Positions 1 to 20,595 of a stretch of 20,595 bases of DNA are shown here, one piece after another. Source of the DNA: a virus; the IMG/VR virus record IMGVR_UViG_3300047550_002443, positions 1 to 20,595 of that record. One strand, given 5' to 3'. Numbering within the stretch: the first letter of the stretch is position 1; each line of letters opens with the position of its first letter. Under the pieces are notes generated by a model that did not search any database, was not told where the DNA came from, and worked only from the letters and a program-made list of their open reading frames with translations. The position numbers and the translations under genes were made by a program.

Positions 1-1
1 A

Positions 2-283
2 GGAAAGAGCTATCCAGTAAAACTGACGCTTGACGGGATAGCTAAGATCGAGAGTTCTGTCGGATGCTCGATCATAAAAATCGCTCAAAAATTATCGCAG
101 GGTGATTTAACAGTCAGTGAAATAAGCACTATTTTGACTTATGCGATAAGGTCAGGCGGCAATAATTTAACATCATCAGATGTTAATATTGCAATATGGG
201 AAGAAGGTATTGTTAATTGTATGAAGTTAACTGGCGATCTCATTACTATCGCATTAGATACGGGCGAAAAGGGAAAAGAATAA
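2..283 (+). CDS. Tail assembly chaperone (GTA gp11 / Phage_TAC_11-like), 5' partial
   Basis: The frame is open from the first bases of the window to a TAA at 281-283, giving 93 residues with the N-terminus missing. The protein begins GKSYPVKLTLDGIAKIE and continues with an ILTYAIRSGG segment and a WEEGI segment. This is the pattern I know from the small tail assembly chaperones of gene transfer agents and related siphophages (Phage_TAC_11). Such proteins coat the tape measure before tail tube polymerisation and play the part of lambda gpG. It lies directly upstream of a second chaperone frame and the tape measure gene, the expected position. Its last codons contain a -1 slippery heptamer, so some ribosomes should extend it into the next frame. 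The family call rests on my reading of the protein and its context, not on a search. Confidence 0.8.
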   Translation, partial: GKSYPVKLTLDGIAKIESSVGCSIIKIAQKLSQGDLTVSEISTILTYAIRSGGNNLTSSDVNIAIWEEGIVNCMKLTGDLITIALDTGEKGKE

Positions 284-316
284 GCCAGGGCAGCCCAGTT
301 GATGAAATACCCTGGC
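271..316 (+). promoter_or_regulatory. Programmed -1 ribosomal frameshift element
   Basis: The heptamer GGGAAAA (271-277) is correctly phased in the zero frame as G GGA AAA; lambda uses GGGAAAG in its G-T overlap. After a 6-base spacer (278-283, which contains the zero-frame stop TAA), GCCAGGG (284-290) pairs perfectly with CCCTGGC (310-316) around a 19-base loop. Slippery site, spacer length and GC-rich stem are all in the usual range for -1 frameshifting. The shifted ribosome enters the frame that ends at 495. Confidence 0.82.
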
Positions 317-495
317 AGCGGTACATAAGTATCGGGATAGGAATTATGGGCATACAACCAGATCAATTCTGGAATATGTCATTAAAAGAATTTATTTTTG
401 CACTGGATGGATTCATGGAATTTAATTCGCCAGTTAAAAATAATCCATTAACAAGAGCAGAGTTAAATGAATTAATGGAGCTGTATCCCGACTAA
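271..495 (+). CDS. Tail assembly chaperone, -1 frameshift extension (Phage_TAC_6 / rcc01693-like)
   Basis: This frame lies -1 relative to the upstream chaperone. It encodes SPVDEIPWQRYISIGIGIMG, then FWNMSLKEFIFALDGF, and ends RAELNELMELYPD. The PW, FW-M-pattern and LM-PD ends are typical of the Phage_TAC_6 (rcc01693) family, which sits beside gp11 in gene transfer agents. No ATG with a ribosome site precedes the conserved part; the only upstream start is a TTG at 217 lying inside the previous gene. A slippery GGGAAAA at 271-277 and a following stem fit production as a fusion to the upstream chaperone, like lambda gpGT. In the shifted frame the junction reads GK-RISQGSPVDEIP. Its TAA overlaps the tape measure ATG by one base. 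Independent initiation at 217 is a less likely alternative. Confidence 0.75.
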   Translation, partial: GKRISQGSPVDEIPWQRYISIGIGIMGIQPDQFWNMSLKEFIFALDGFMEFNSPVKNNPLTRAELNELMELYPD

Positions 496-2480
496 TGGCA
501 AGCGAAACAATAGACACTTTGATCATAAAAATTCAAGCTGATATGCAAGGCTTGAAGGCTGATCTTGTCAAAACTCAAAAAGAATTAGATAACTTTTCAA
601 AGTCTGTCGATAAGCAGACATCATTTATCGGCTCGGCATTCAAAAGACTAGGAGCAACTGCATTAGCATATTTTAGTATTCAAACAGTAAAGCAAATTGT
701 AAATGTAGTATCATCGTTTGAAAAACTACAAACATCTTTAGTGTCCGTAACTGGCTCTGCACAATCAGCATCAGCAGCATTTGACCTTATCGAAAAATTA
801 GCATTAGAAACACCTTTTTCGATAGATGAAATAAGCGAATCCTATATTAAATTAAAATCACGCGGAATTGATCCAACAAAAGAAACATTGACAGCATTTG
901 CGAATATAGCAGCGGCTACTGGAAAAGACTTATCGCAGGTAAGTGAAGCGGCATCAAAAGCAATACTTGGCGAGATGGAAGGATTAAAACAATTTGGAAT
1001 TGTAGCTAAAAAAGAAAAAGGAAACATCGAGTTAATATATAAAGGCGTTACAACAACAGTAAGGGATAGCTCTGAAAACATATCTAAATATCTGCAATCC
1101 ATAGGTAATGTTCAATATGCTGATGCCGCAGCAAGACAGGCTGATACAGTTGCAGGGTCATTTGACAATCTTATTGATAGTGTAAAACTACTTATAAATG
1201 AATTGGGCGAATCAGGTCTTGGAAAGGCATTAGCTTTCACAATCAATCTGTTATCTAGCTACATTCAACTACAAGCAAGAATCCTAGATTCAGTAGGAAA
1301 AGAATATAATGCTCAAGATGAATTAAATAAAGCAATAGAGCGCAGGAATGAATTACAAGAAGAATTAAATGTTGCAGTTGCTGACGCTGGCGGAAAGTAT
1401 TCTGGTCTTGTCATTAATTTACGGGACTTGTTGAAAGCAAAAAATGCAGAGATAGTTTTGCTGAGGGCAGATGTTGATCAGCAAAATGAAGGAACTGAAG
1501 CAAAAAAGAAGCATAAAGAAGCTGTAATGCAAGAATTAAAAGAGATCGACAAGGCTTTAATTCCTAAGAAAAGATACAATGATTTATTTGCAGAGGAAAT
1601 AAAATACTATAAAGAGCTTGGTCTAACTGACGCTGAGTTAATGCGTCGAGACTTAGCCAAGTCAATGAGGGTGCTTAATATTGAACAAGTCAAAGGAGCA
1701 TTATCTGCAGATGAATATGCAAGGGCATCTGATTATTTAAAGAAAAAACTCAAAGAATTAAGTACTCCGCTTGAGTTTATAAGTAAATCAGAATTTATAC
1801 CCAGAAAAAGGCTAAACACAACAGCAATAGAAGATGCGCTGTCTGCTGTAATTCCGCGCGAAAAAAATGAATTAGACAATTTTGCAGTTGCGGCTGCCAG
1901 CTTGAAGGCTAATTTGATCAGCCTTTCTATGTCAGGCATTGGAACTCTGGAAGATTCAATGCTTAATCTTATCAACGGAACAAAATCAGTCAAAGAATCA
2001 TTCAGAGATATGGCTAATTCAATCTTGAATGACATTATAAGAATGACGCTGCGACAACAAATATCAGCACCCATTGCCGCATTGCTAGGTAACTTTATAG
2101 GCAATATAGGCGGTCAGATTGTACCCGGCGGCTTTCCTCTTGGTAGTTCATTGAATACCTCCGTATTGCAGAGACAAACGATGGATTATTTTACATCCAA
2201 CATAAATCTAGGCAGGGCAGGCGGTGGCAGTGTATCGCCTAATCTTCCGTATATGGTAGGCGAGCGTGGCGCTGAATTATTTGTACCTAATACGCCAGGA
2301 AGAATTGTCAACAATGCCGGCATGAAATCAATGCCTGGCGGTAATGTTGTCGTAAATCAAAACATAAATATATCTGCTGGCGTTGCTCAAACTGTCAGGG
2401 CAGAAATGTATTCATTATTGCCGCAGATAAAATTAGAAACTCTCGCAGCAATAAATAATAGAAAACTGAGAACAGTATAA
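495..2480 (+). CDS. Tail tape measure protein
   Basis: This 661-residue protein should set tail length and line the tail tube lumen before DNA ejection. The N-terminal ~45 residues look like a coiled coil (MQGLKADLVKTQKELDNF). Residues ~70-260 form the tape-measure core, including a SLVSVTGSAQSA segment, AIAGE-type helices and ADTVAGSFDNLIDSVK, a pattern that recurs in this family. A charged helical stretch follows at ~275-400. The C-terminus has a Gly-rich part with the motif PYMVGERGAELFVPNTPGRI, which is very typical of tape measure C-termini. The start is the ATG overlapping the upstream stop (TAATG), which suggests translational coupling; no strong ribosome site is seen. At roughly 0.15 nm per residue the tail would be about 100 nm long, a rule-of-thumb inference. 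Confidence 0.92.
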   Translation: MASETIDTLIIKIQADMQGLKADLVKTQKELDNFSKSVDKQTSFIGSAFKRLGATALAYFSIQTVKQIVNVVSSFEKLQTSLVSVTGSAQSASAAFDLIEKLALETPFSIDEISESYIKLKSRGIDPTKETLTAFANIAAATGKDLSQVSEAASKAILGEMEGLKQFGIVAKKEKGNIELIYKGVTTTVRDSSENISKYLQSIGNVQYADAAARQADTVAGSFDNLIDSVKLLINELGESGLGKALAFTINLLSSYIQLQARILDSVGKEYNAQDELNKAIERRNELQEELNVAVADAGGKYSGLVINLRDLLKAKNAEIVLLRADVDQQNEGTEAKKKHKEAVMQELKEIDKALIPKKRYNDLFAEEIKYYKELGLTDAELMRRDLAKSMRVLNIEQVKGALSADEYARASDYLKKKLKELSTPLEFISKSEFIPRKRLNTTAIEDALSAVIPREKNELDNFAVAAASLKANLISLSMSGIGTLEDSMLNLINGTKSVKESFRDMANSILNDIIRMTLRQQISAPIAALLGNFIGNIGGQIVPGGFPLGSSLNTSVLQRQTMDYFTSNINLGRAGGGSVSPNLPYMVGERGAELFVPNTPGRIVNNAGMKSMPGGNVVVNQNINISAGVAQTVRAEMYSLLPQIKLETLAAINNRKLRTV

Positions 2481-3100: not shown

Positions 3101-3351
3101 TGTCTAAGCTGTCAAAAAATCAGTTTAATAGATTCTGTTCCCTGCTGTGTGTTATAACTGGAAAAGAGCCTAAAGAAAATATACAAGATAAATTGACGCA
3201 AGATGGATTCTATAAAGATAAAAAATTAACCGAAAAAGGGAATAGTGAACTACGCAGATTAGCAACGATTGCTGGACTAATATCTGATACTGTATTTGAT
3301 GATATAAGAGCCAGAAAAGAATTTAATGACTTAATCGAGGTGAAAAAATGA
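3100..3351 (+). CDS. Small hypothetical protein of the tail operon
   Basis: This 83-residue protein is rich in Lys and Asp and is predicted soluble and mostly helical. I do not recognise a family. The middle segment KLTQDGFYKDKKLTEKGNSELRRLATIAGL looks like a small helix-turn or winged-helix-like unit of the kind seen in many small phage proteins, but no residues diagnose DNA binding. It is coupled on both sides: its ATG overlaps the previous stop (TGATG), and its TGA overlaps the next ATG (ATGA at 3348-3351). Position between the distal tail protein and two secreted-looking proteins suggests a tail-tip assembly role at most. Confidence 0.7.
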   Translation: MSKLSKNQFNRFCSLLCVITGKEPKENIQDKLTQDGFYKDKKLTEKGNSELRRLATIAGLISDTVFDDIRARKEFNDLIEVKK

Positions 3352-4178
3352 TATTTTATATATTATTATTTTTTGCCCTCTCAGCAGAGATACAGGCGCA
3401 ACAGACAGGAACTTGTGCAATAGGCACAGAATACTGCGAAACAAGCTCGTCAGTAAATACAAATACGAGTACCAATACCAATATAAATACTAATACCAAT
3501 ATAAATACTAATACTAACGTAAATACTAATAACAATACAACGAACAGCACGACTACAAGTAACAGCACCAATATAAATACGTCTGATATAAATTCAAACG
3601 TAGAAACAAACGCAACAAATACAAATATTAATACAAGCGTATCAGAATCTGTTTCTGATTCTAATGTATCGACTGAGAATAAAAATTTTAACATCAATCA
3701 GTCATATTCTGGATCAGATCAATACATCAAGCAAAAGAGCATAGCACCGCCACCTAGCGCAACCGCGCCCAGTATTGGAAGCTCTTACAGTCAGGACTTA
3801 TGCAGCACTGGCGTATCAGCGGCATTGCAGACACAGATTCTTGGAATATCATCAGGCGCGTCTATAACAGATCAAAACTGCGAAAGAATAAAACTTGCTA
3901 AGGTTTTATATGATGCGGGTATGCGCGTTGCATCTGTCAGCATACTTTGCCAGGATGCGCGAGTATTCAAGGCAATGACAATGGCAGGAACGCCATGCCC
4001 GTACAATGGAATGATAGGCGAAAAAGCAGCTAAGGCATGGGATGATAATCCAAAAGATAGACCAGATTACGATGACTACATGGATAAAGAGGTAAATAAA
4101 TGCTTGTCCAGCTTTCAAAACGGGGCAATTAAAAAGAGTAAAAAACAATGCGAAAGAGAATTTGCAGATTCGCATTGA
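3348..4178 (+). CDS. Signal-peptide protein with Asn/Thr repeat region and Cys-containing C-terminal domain
   Basis: The 276-residue product starts with a hydrophobic stretch (MIFYILLFFALSAEIQAQQ) that looks like a Sec signal peptide with a cleavage site near residue 18. Residues ~34-125 are a low-complexity Asn/Thr/Ser run of the form NTNINTNTN, encoded by 18-bp tandem repeats. The C-terminal ~130 residues form a compact unit containing CERIKLAKVLYDAGMRVAS, LCQDARVFKAM and AGTPCPYNGMIG, with about six Cys that could form disulfides after export. I recall similar C-terminal motifs in proteins of unknown function from uncultured marine phages, but cannot confirm this. A signal peptide is odd for a tail structural protein. 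A host-envelope or tail-fibre-associated role are alternatives; no function is assigned. Confidence 0.8.
   Translation: MIFYILLFFALSAEIQAQQTGTCAIGTEYCETSSSVNTNTSTNTNINTNTNINTNTNVNTNNNTTNSTTTSNSTNINTSDINSNVETNATNTNINTSVSESVSDSNVSTENKNFNINQSYSGSDQYIKQKSIAPPPSATAPSIGSSYSQDLCSTGVSAALQTQILGISSGASITDQNCERIKLAKVLYDAGMRVASVSILCQDARVFKAMTMAGTPCPYNGMIGEKAAKAWDDNPKDRPDYDDYMDKEVNKCLSSFQNGAIKKSKKQCEREFADSH
3456..3545 (+). repeat. 18-bp tandem repeat inside the Asn/Thr-rich coding region
   Basis: Two identical copies of AATACCAATATAAATACT occupy 3474-3491 and 3492-3509. A third copy with three changes lies at 3510-3527, and degenerate copies flank them at 3456-3473 and 3528-3545. The unit is six codons, so changes in copy number keep the frame and only alter the length of the Asn-Thr linker. 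Confidence 0.8.
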
Positions 4179-6168: not shown

Positions 6169-6588
6169 ATGGTACTCGACGCATTGTTAAACATCGGCGG
6201 CAAGCTGGTTGATAAACTTATTCCTGATCCCCAGGCTAAGGCAGCGGCACAACTTGAACTGGCTAAACTCGCACAAAATGGCGAACTAGCTGCAATGGCT
6301 AATGAAACAGAATTGTATAAACTTGAGCAGCAAAATCTGACCGACCGGCATAAAGCTGATATGGCATCCGACAGTTGGCTAAGTAAAAACATTCGCCCAA
6401 TGACGCTTGTTTTTATCTTGTTTGTTTATACGGTATTCGGTTTTATGTCTGCCTTTGAAATTGAAGTAAACTCGCCTTATGTAGAATTACTTGGGCAATG
6501 GGGGATGTTGATCATGTCATTTTATTTTGGCGGCAGAACGTTAGAAAAGATTATAGATATGAAGGGCGCGAAAAATGCATCTAAGTAA
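6169..6588 (+). CDS. Holin, 3TM gene-transfer-agent family
   Basis: The protein is 139 residues long. The N-terminal third is an amphipathic Ala/Leu/Lys helix region (PDPQAKAAAQLELAKLAQ), followed by SWLSKNIRPMTLVFILFVYT and a second hydrophobic segment LLGQWGMLIMSFYFGGRTLEK. The sequence SKNIRPMTL with a terminal FYFGGRTLEK is what I expect of the GTA_holin_3TM family (Pfam PF11351 as I recall it). The holin would form inner-membrane holes that release the endolysin. Two clear membrane helices (~76-96 and ~104-124) are visible; the third in the family name would have to be the N-terminal amphipathic part. The gene overlaps the endolysin gene by 14 bases, the classic lysis cassette arrangement. 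Confidence 0.85.
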   Translation: MVLDALLNIGGKLVDKLIPDPQAKAAAQLELAKLAQNGELAAMANETELYKLEQQNLTDRHKADMASDSWLSKNIRPMTLVFILFVYTVFGFMSAFEIEVNSPYVELLGQWGMLIMSFYFGGRTLEKIIDMKGAKNASK

Positions 6589-7042
6589 AAATTTTACTAT
6601 CGATGAACTATGTAAAAGTCAGTTGGCTATAGATTGTGGCATCGAGAACAAGCCAGACTCGGACGAGGTTGTAAATAACCTGAAGTTGTTGTGTGAAAAG
6701 GTTTTGCAGCCCGTCCGAGACCATTACGGCAAGCCTGTCAGAATCAATAGCGGATACAGAAGCGAGCAAGTCAATATGCTTGCCCGTGGCTCCAAGACTT
6801 CAGACCATATATTAGGATGCGCCGCTGATATTGAAATCAACGGCGTTCCTAATGCTGAACTGGCACAATGGATTGCTGATAACCTAGATTATACACAGGT
6901 TATACTTGAGTTCTACACGCCTGGAATACCAGACAGCGGCTGGGTTCATGTTTCTTATAATCCAGCTAATCTTAAAAAGCAGAACTTAACCGCTGCAAAA
7001 GTAGATGGCAAAACAAAATACATTGATGGGTTTGTAGCCTAA
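6575..7042 (+). CDS. Endolysin, M15-family zinc D-Ala-D-Ala peptidase
   Basis: The product has 155 residues and matches the Peptidase_M15_3 pattern throughout: LSKNFTIDEL at the N-terminus, VRINSGYRSEQVN, then SDHILGCAADIEI and GWVHVSY. The zinc ligands and catalytic residues read as His78 and Asp85 (S-x-H-x(2)-G-x-A-x-D type motif) and His125. The enzyme should cut peptide cross-links of peptidoglycan at the end of infection. There is no signal peptide, so it depends on the holin encoded just upstream, which it overlaps. It is the last gene of the late operon. Its TAA at 7040-7042 directly abuts the stop of the convergent oxygenase gene, leaving no room for a terminator between them. Confidence 0.9.
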   Translation: MHLSKNFTIDELCKSQLAIDCGIENKPDSDEVVNNLKLLCEKVLQPVRDHYGKPVRINSGYRSEQVNMLARGSKTSDHILGCAADIEINGVPNAELAQWIADNLDYTQVILEFYTPGIPDSGWVHVSYNPANLKKQNLTAAKVDGKTKYIDGFVA

Positions 7043-7594
7043 TCACCTGAACGGTGTCCCAGCAATCCATCCAACTAGTGCAACACGCTTGCCGCTTGTG
7101 ACTGGATTAACACGGTGCGGAATGAATGACGGGAAGGCTACAATCGTACCTTTAGAAAAGGAAAACTTGTATTCCTTATTTGTAAAAAAGGACATTTCGC
7201 CGCCTTCGTATTCGTCATTCAGAATGACTGAAACTGATATTTTTCTGCTAGAAGATTGATTTATACCAATATCAATATGCCAGTCATAATGTTGTTCCTC
7301 AGCATATTCTAATATCTGCGGTTCCTCGATAATCCCGAAAATATCATAGCCATATTTTTTATTAGCGATAATTCCAGCATTGCCGATAATCTGGTTTGTT
7401 ATTTCATTTTTTGGCAGATAAATATCGCAATTACGGTGCTGGTCTATGATTACAGAATCGCCATCGTTTATTTTAGAGATATGACGCTCGGCAGTTGCCT
7501 GTAACTTTAGAATCTCGTTGCATTGATCGTGATCAATCGATCCTAGTTGCTGAACGCCATAATCGTCATTCTTGAATTGCGGGAACAGCAGCAT
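7043..7594 (-). CDS. 2-oxoglutarate/Fe(II)-dependent oxygenase (PKHD-hydroxylase-like)
   Basis: This 183-residue protein carries the double-stranded beta-helix signature of 2OG-Fe(II) oxygenases. His106 and Asp108 form the HxD motif (DWHIDIG), His160 is the distal iron ligand (FIPHRV), and Arg170 (SGKRVAL) is the likely 2-oxoglutarate ligand. The stretch SVSVILNDEYEGGEMSFF is typical of the PiuC/PKHD and P4H-like subgroup. Such genes are common in marine phages, where the substrates are mostly unknown; protein hydroxylation or DNA/RNA base modification are possibilities. The start has GGAG six bases upstream of ATG and overlaps the preceding HTH gene by 29 bases. It is the last gene of the leftward operon. 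The family is confident; the substrate is not. Confidence 0.88.
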   Translation of the reverse strand: MLLFPQFKNDDYGVQQLGSIDHDQCNEILKLQATAERHISKINDGDSVIIDQHRNCDIYLPKNEITNQIIGNAGIIANKKYGYDIFGIIEEPQILEYAEEQHYDWHIDIGINQSSSRKISVSVILNDEYEGGEMSFFTNKEYKFSFSKGTIVAFPSFIPHRVNPVTSGKRVALVGWIAGTPFR

Positions 7595-19631: not shown

Positions 19632-20595
19632 ATGGAACATGATTATCAAGATGTAAAATCAGCCATTGAAGCTACTTGTCGCGCTTTCGAAGAATTTAAG
19701 AAAACGAATGACGAGCGAGTACGTAGGCTGGAAAAAGGCAACAGCGATTCGCTGGTTGATGCAAAACTGAGCCGTATCGAAAAAGACCTCGATCAGCTTG
19801 AAAAGATCAATCAGGAACTCACGCTGTCCAAGCAGAACGAGAAAAACATCAAGGAACAGCTTGATAACATCGAAACGATGATCAAGCGTCCTGCTATGGG
19901 ATTGACCAGTAAACAGGTTGATCGCAAGATGGAAGTATTCTCTAAGTGGCTGCGCAAAGGCAAAGAAAACCTGGATCGCGATGAAGTCAAAGCGTTGACT
20001 GTAGGCGATGACACCCAGGCTGGATTCCTTGCCCCGCCGGAATACGTTGCGGAACTGATTAAGACCGTTACCGAAATCTCGCCGGTTCGTCAGGTTGCCC
20101 GTGTTCGTACCACCAGCCAGCGTTCAATTCAGATGCCTTCGAGAACGGCTACTTTCGCCGCTTCTTGGGTTGCTGAAACTGGTACGCGGTCTGAAACGAC
20201 TGGATATACTACCCAGCTTGAAGAAATCCCGACGCATGAACTGTATGCGCTTGTCGATATTTCCGAAGCTCTGCTGGAAGATAGCGTATTCAATCTGGAA
20301 GCCGAAATGTCAACCGAGTTTGCCGAACAGTTTGCAAAGGCTGAAGGCGCGGCGTTCACAACGGGTAACTCTATTGGCAAGCCGGAAGGCTTCACCACCA
20401 ATACCGGCGCAAGCACGACAGGCGGTTCAGGTGTTGTTACTGCTGATACTCTGCTCACACTGGTACACGCGATTAAGACCGAATACGGCAGAAATGCTAT
20501 TTTTGCATTCAATCGCACTACGCTCGGCGCAATCCGTAAGCTGAAAGATACTGCCGGTCAGTATATATTCCAGCCTGGAATGAGTGGCATTGCTG
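19632..20595 (+). CDS. Major capsid protein, HK97 fold, 3' partial
   Basis: The ATG at 19632 has AGGAG seven bases upstream. The frame is open to the window edge, giving 321 residues without a stop. Residues 1-~105 are a charged coiled coil (RVRRLEKGNSDSLVDAKLSR, ISRIEKDL-type heptads), the delta domain that acts as scaffold and is removed by the upstream protease. The mature part begins near the segment TVGDDTQAGFLAPPEYVAEL and continues ISPVRQVARVRTTSQRSIQM and TPTHEL-like TQLEEIPTHELYALVDISEA, typical of HK97 Phage_capsid proteins. Codon use (CTG for Leu, CGT for Arg, GGT for Gly, ACC for Thr) is clearly more GC-rich than in the tail genes. This fits selection for high expression in the host. 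Confidence 0.96.
   Translation, partial: MEHDYQDVKSAIEATCRAFEEFKKTNDERVRRLEKGNSDSLVDAKLSRIEKDLDQLEKINQELTLSKQNEKNIKEQLDNIETMIKRPAMGLTSKQVDRKMEVFSKWLRKGKENLDRDEVKALTVGDDTQAGFLAPPEYVAELIKTVTEISPVRQVARVRTTSQRSIQMPSRTATFAASWVAETGTRSETTGYTTQLEEIPTHELYALVDISEALLEDSVFNLEAEMSTEFAEQFAKAEGAAFTTGNSIGKPEGFTTNTGASTTGGSGVVTADTLLTLVHAIKTEYGRNAIFAFNRTTLGAIRKLKDTAGQYIFQPGMSGIA

Follow-up and report, generated by a model that had tools for sequence, protein, structure and literature searches.

A predicted programmed -1 frameshift joins two tail assembly chaperones in a phage with an RcGTA-like tail and probably has counterparts in gene transfer agents

How is the second of two adjacent tail assembly chaperones translated when its reading frame lacks a plausible start codon of its own? 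The question is raised by the window, the whole 20,595-base stretch of DNA analyzed here, which is the complete virus record IMGVR_UViG_3300047550_002443, a metagenomic contig with both ends cut. Its first two open reading frames match the profiles of the RcGTA g10 and g10.1 families. ORF1 matches PF11836 (Phage_TAC_11, 'GTA-gp10'; E 1.3e-10, 41.6 bits, cut-off 27.8), while ORF2 matches PF09550 (Phage_TAC_6; E 1.2e-11, 45.3 bits, cut-off 23.4) and, under the cut-off of 56.1 bits, NCBIfam TIGR02216 ('rcc01693 family'; E 1e-9, 38.5 bits). At a TM of about 0.7, the TAC_11 structural model (pLDDT 84.7) matches models of viral proteins that carry the name tail assembly chaperone; its fold search against solved structures in the PDB gave no significant match, and that of the small TAC_6 model gave none at E <= 0.001. 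A tblastn search of phages with the window TAC_11 had no match.

The genomic setting agrees with a tail cluster. The record begins within TAC_11 (window 1-112) and finishes within a capsid gene (19632-20595), and thus the capsid-to-tail segment is absent. The end of a second contig, L010, is identical to window 1-112 in an exact overlap; L010, which seems by this overlap to be the same virus or a nearly identical one, supplies the ATG of ORF1 and, upstream, a tail tube gene similar to RcGTA g9. The resulting order is major tail protein, TAC pair and tape measure, with the ATG of the tape measure gene directly downstream and overlapping the ORF2 stop. The tape measure protein has 661 amino acids, and the window also carries recombination and methylase genes; it is therefore a phage and not a gene transfer agent (GTA), and a complete RcGTA-type cluster, with a short tape measure and the GTA TIM-barrel protein, was not found in it. 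Elsewhere in the window, positions 6169-7042 encode a GTA_holin_3TM protein (PF11351, E 9e-11) and, after it, an M15 peptidase, likely a lysis pair and a further GTA-associated family in a phage. At positions 3348-4178 lies a gene for a protein that has long Asn/Thr repeats and matches no Pfam family; the DNA at 3869-4072 shares 69% identity with Pelagibacter phage HTVC202P, and a PKHD-type 2-oxoglutarate/Fe(II) hydroxylase-like protein lies on the minus strand (7043-7594).

Table 1 Features of the chaperone junction and its surroundings in the window
Feature	Coordinates	Strand	Basis
ORF1, tail assembly chaperone TAC_11 / RcGTA g10 family ('G' protein)	2..283	+	PF11836; 5' end cut
Slippery heptamer G_GGA_AAA	271..277	+	Phase checked; conserved in relatives
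6-nt spacer GAATAA with zero-frame stop TAA (281-283)	278..283	+	Sequence
Hairpin, 7 bp, arms 284-290 and 310-316	284..316	+	Fold, synonymous shuffles, relatives L103 and L105
ORF2, -1 reading frame, 'T' part, predicted C-terminal part of fusion	217..495	+	Open frame, divergence pattern
TAC_6 / rcc01693 (RcGTA g10.1) domain	307..492	+	PF09550; TIGR02216 below cut-off
Tape measure protein	495..2480	+	TMP_3 PF20155 E 3e-14; PHROG tape measure families

All the elements of the frameshift cassette named in an earlier sequence-only reading are present: the heptamer GGGAAAA, a spacer of six bases that bears the stop, and a perfect stem of seven base pairs. The zero frame, whose codons begin at base 2 modulo 3, reads AAG GGA AAA GAA TAA, and the heptamer is therefore in the X_XXY_YYZ slip phase. 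ORF1 terminates inside the spacer, and a slip at this site would create the junction GEKGK-RISQGS. The same reading held that the second frame lacks a plausible start, which is borne out in the window, where the sole common start codon of the open -1 frame is a TTG at 217, 54 nt upstream of the heptamer. This TTG is not conserved, and the closest relatives have no start codon in that frame.

Comparison with relatives carries most of the argument. Profile searches of IMG/VR with both proteins, together with phage records, gave 106 distinct viral loci having both domains, and in 104 of them the second domain lies in the -1 frame. Every one of these 104 has a phased XXXYYYZ heptamer within the overlap, a count over relatives that are not statistically independent. 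The other two phases hold heptamers in 19 and 39 of the 104, the stretch of ORF1 just upstream in 1 of 103, and base shuffling yields a mean of 18 loci with one. Collapse at 80% identity to remove redundancy leaves 51 such loci, again all with the phased heptamer (against 11 and 22 of them in the alternative phases), where synonymous resampling of frame 0 predicts a mean of 13.5 and a maximum of 21 (300 draws). The heptamers are AAAAAAG, GGGAAAG, GGGAAAA, AAAAAAA, GGGAAAC and a few others, including AAAAAAC. The amino acids that they encode vary (GK, KK, GN, KN) while the heptamer pattern stays, and hence it is the nucleotide pattern and not the peptide that is conserved. The sequence-only reading had proposed to check relatives for conservation of the heptamer and for stem covariation; the heptamer pattern is kept in the -1 viral loci, and stem covariation is seen in the window clade, as two compensatory pairs. 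Relatives with a broken heptamer and an own start, which that reading had set against itself, occur, yet they are rare (2/106), and in both the +1 frame encodes the second part: in L120 (1491-1713) the junction reads GAG AAA AAA TAG, and in phage L180 (1455-1692) the second chaperone has its own ATG.

Could ORF2 instead be an independent gene, started at TTG 217 or by reinitiation near the stop, in the style of the Rhodobacterales GTAs? An AAGAAGG motif does precede TTG 217, which follows 9 nt later; overlapping stop and start codons do prevail in those GTAs; and L180 with its ATG, although in another frame, provides a precedent. Against this stand the position of the TTG deep within ORF1, in a frame that is startless in the nearest relatives, and the absence of ATG, GTG or TTG before the TAC_6 domain in 93 of the 104 second frames. 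An independent start would also leave the conserved phased heptamer unexplained, and we regard it as improbable. Still less credible is slippage of the RNA polymerase rather than the ribosome as the means of joining the frames. Runs of 6-9 A in some relatives would permit transcriptional slippage there, but GGGAAAA in the window is no long homopolymer, and GGGAAAN is used by 22 of the 51 non-redundant relatives. Sequencing error or decay of the gene, conceivable in a 20.6-kb metagenomic contig with cut ends, is already refuted by the recurrence of the -1 register and heptamer in more than 100 distinct contigs and isolated phages, and ORF2 is under purifying selection, because its differences from the two nearest distinct relatives, L103 and L105, fall mainly at third positions when codons are read in the -1 frame (22/9/44 and 8/8/31 for first, second and third positions); the corresponding ORF1 count against L103 was spoiled by an indel and left out.

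The conserved phased heptamer, the startless second frames and the order of the families therefore place the window with the lambda G/GT kind, and the claim that a -1 cassette joins TAC_11 to TAC_6 in the manner of lambda is strongly supported by the relatives. On these comparisons, we give a probability of about 0.93 to programmed -1 frameshifting by the ribosome at this site in the window, where a tailed phage with an RcGTA-like tail module encodes its tail assembly chaperones.

The downstream stem is the weaker half of the case. The arms GCCAGGG and CCCTGGC pair perfectly (MFE -14.1 kcal/mol). Compared with dinucleotide shuffles this energy is unremarkable (z -1.19); compared with synonymous shuffles that keep the -1 protein, it is lower than expected (p 0.02). 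L103 and L105 keep the stem in register, and two of its pairs are compensated; sliding the register gives a worse result. The clade comprises only three distinct sequences. Across non-redundant phages, folding downstream of the heptamer is stronger than expected at GGGAAAN sites (mean z -0.84, n 24) and not at AAAAAAN sites (+0.47, n 23; Mann-Whitney p 0.0007). A_AAA_AAG is generally viewed as slippery on its own, and this difference fits such self-sufficiency. We also considered one common stem register for all GGGAAAG phages (72% paired, compared with 43-57% for slid registers), and found covariation not above shuffles; the common stem is weakly supported, and stem covariation is therefore claimed for the window clade only. 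The window stem is probably a stimulator of frameshifting.

From the observed elements, their phase and their conservation, we infer slippage, its rate and the roles of the chaperones as follows. The majority of ribosomes would halt at the zero-frame TAA, which yields the short TAC_11 chaperone. The few percent (by the lambda model) that slip one base back on G_GGA_AAA, assisted by the hairpin, would make a TAC_11-TAC_6 fusion. By analogy with lambda gpG and gpGT, the short form would coat the tape measure protein and the fusion would bring in the tail tube subunits. A natural in-frame fusion supports, at the level of sequence, the physical joining of TAC_11 to the second domain: in Rhizobium phage RHph_X2_26 (L018, 2105-2677) a single protein of 190 aa covers both of them. 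In its relative RHph_TM3_3_14B, which matches it in two pieces at 60% identity, they are split between the 0 and -1 frames. No short form is obvious for the in-frame fusion of RHph_X2_26.

The sequence-only reading had contrasted the window with GTAs, in which the two chaperones were said to be separate genes. This is correct for the Rhodobacterales. With the RcGTA tail tube protein as query we obtained 80 loci, apparently all from this order and including R. capsulatus, in which g10 ends ACGTGA and g10.1 starts at the overlapping GTG. Among the 58 pairs in -1 register, 55 have a start codon that overlaps the stop (ATGA, GTGA or TTGA); the other 22 pairs are in +1 register, each with its own start. 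No GGGAAAN or AAAAAAN heptamer was found in any of these 80 pairs.

The contrast does not extend to many RcGTA-type clusters outside the Rhodobacterales. We sampled chromosomal TAC_6 loci at the class, phylum and order level and obtained 167 distinct pairs, 149 of them in -1 register. An overlapping start is present in 67 of the -1 pairs, and 7 of these 67 have a phased heptamer. Another 71 are startless, with ATG, GTG and TTG all absent from the second frame (rare starts such as CTG or ATT may still exist); here the phased heptamer occurs in 63, leaving 8 without, and the alternative phases give 7 and 4. The difference between 63/71 and 7/67 has a Fisher p of 7e-22, a value that ignores relatedness. 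Most of these loci have an RcGTA-like tape protein encoded after them, and the 71 pairs come mostly from GTA-type clusters outside the Rhodobacterales. Some of these clusters were confirmed as RcGTA-type through matches to GTA families (TIM-barrel, hub, peptidase and tape). Of the clusters examined, L313 (GGGAAAG) and L316 (CCCTTTC) encode the TIM-barrel protein (E below 1e-146), and both of them, like L315 (GGGAAAG), carry GTA hub, distal tail or tape families. One chromosomal junction (L281, 1441-1483) holds three phased GGGAAAG heptamers in 43 nt, apparently a repeated segment.

The chromosomal sites are of the GGGAAAG or AAAAAAC types in 15 cases, CCCTTT[CG] in 38 and mostly AAACCCT in the remaining 10. 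CCCTTTC in GTAs coincides in part with the coding of PFPW in the -1 frame. As a control, CCC TTT was counted in the overlap (27/34) and at positions after the stop (7/27; p 4e-5). Given this enrichment, and several CCCTTT sites that lie off PFPW, coding alone is insufficient, and the enrichment argues for selection. By their startless second frame and phased heptamer, these clusters probably frameshift too, with CCCTTTC and AAACCCT as candidate slippery sites. Two GTA-like phage records with short tape measures (L016 and L019) have AAACCCT plus an overlapping TTG, a combination that places them in neither class. The frameshift and stop-start linkages are nearly mutually exclusive, which suggests that the mode of making the second chaperone switched repeatedly during domestication. 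Taken together, we think it likely, with less assurance than for the window itself, that many RcGTA-type GTAs outside the Rhodobacterales frameshift between g10 and g10.1 (at GGGAAAG, AAAAAAC, CCCTTT[CG] or AAACCCT), that the Rhodobacterales replaced this linkage by the stop-start overlap, and that it changed more than once.

Such a scheme would place the uncharacterized g10/g10.1 pair of GTAs with lambda G/GT and would give a reason for its constant -1 register. It would also mean that gene annotation that relies on start codons cuts short, or overlooks, the second chaperone in numerous phages and GTAs. Because one gene pair occurs in both a frameshift and a stop-start form, it becomes testable whether only long tails depend on a strict proportion of short to fused chaperone, the Rhodobacterales GTAs having very short tape measures.

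Frameshifting of tail chaperones is itself established, and has been called usual in Rhodobacter phages (PMC8601537); a rate of 6-7% was measured in an HK97-like chaperone cluster by the GeneTack authors (PMC3711429). For RcGTA, g10 and g10.5 have been described as tail chaperones 1 and 2 with frameshifting unmentioned (PMC11409702), and the structure paper does not mention the chaperones (PMC7296036). The searchable literature, in which subscription journals are mostly not included, contained no report of frameshifting of the g10/g10.1 pair in GTAs.

The known precedent is frameshifting between the tail chaperones G and GT of lambda (Levin 1993; Xu, Hendrix and Duda 2004, as cited in PMC5009743). 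The window shares with it a pair of short, adjoining frames upstream of the tape measure gene, the -1 register, a GGGAAAN heptamer and a second frame without its own start. It differs in its families (TAC_11/TAC_6), in using GGGAAAA and not GGGAAAG, which is found in its relatives, and in the hairpin downstream of the GGGAAAN sites of its group. The HK97-like cluster (PMC3711429) and the TAC-N/NC genes of Vandenendeviridae (PMC12846349) also have a programmed -1 frameshift in tail chaperone genes, but with other families and other slippery sequences. Closer are Rhizobium phages RHph_Y3_1, RHph_TM3_3_14B and 16-3 and Labrenzia phage vB_LagS-V1, in which TAC_11 is followed by a -1 frame; the heptamer is GGGAAAC in RHph_Y3_1 and GGGAAAG in vB_LagS-V1. 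RHph_X2_26 differs by its in-frame fusion. Phages 16-3, TM3_3_14B and X2_25 differ in having GGGGGAR in common and no XXXYYYZ heptamer. In the records with this arrangement, TAC_11 then a -1 frame without XXXYYYZ (L455, which is phage 16-3, at 901-1463, and L452, L453 and L456), GGGGGAR near the end of the first frame is a possible non-canonical -1 site. RcGTA g10 (Rcc01692) and g10.1/g10.5 (rcc01693) have the same families, order and -1 register, and lie between the tail tube and tape measure genes as in the window phage; in R. capsulatus, by contrast, the second gene begins at the stop-overlapping GTG (ACGTGAGTGGC) and the slippery heptamer is absent. The frameshift predicted for the phage is thus ordinary, and it is the comparative pattern in GTAs that goes beyond the known kind.
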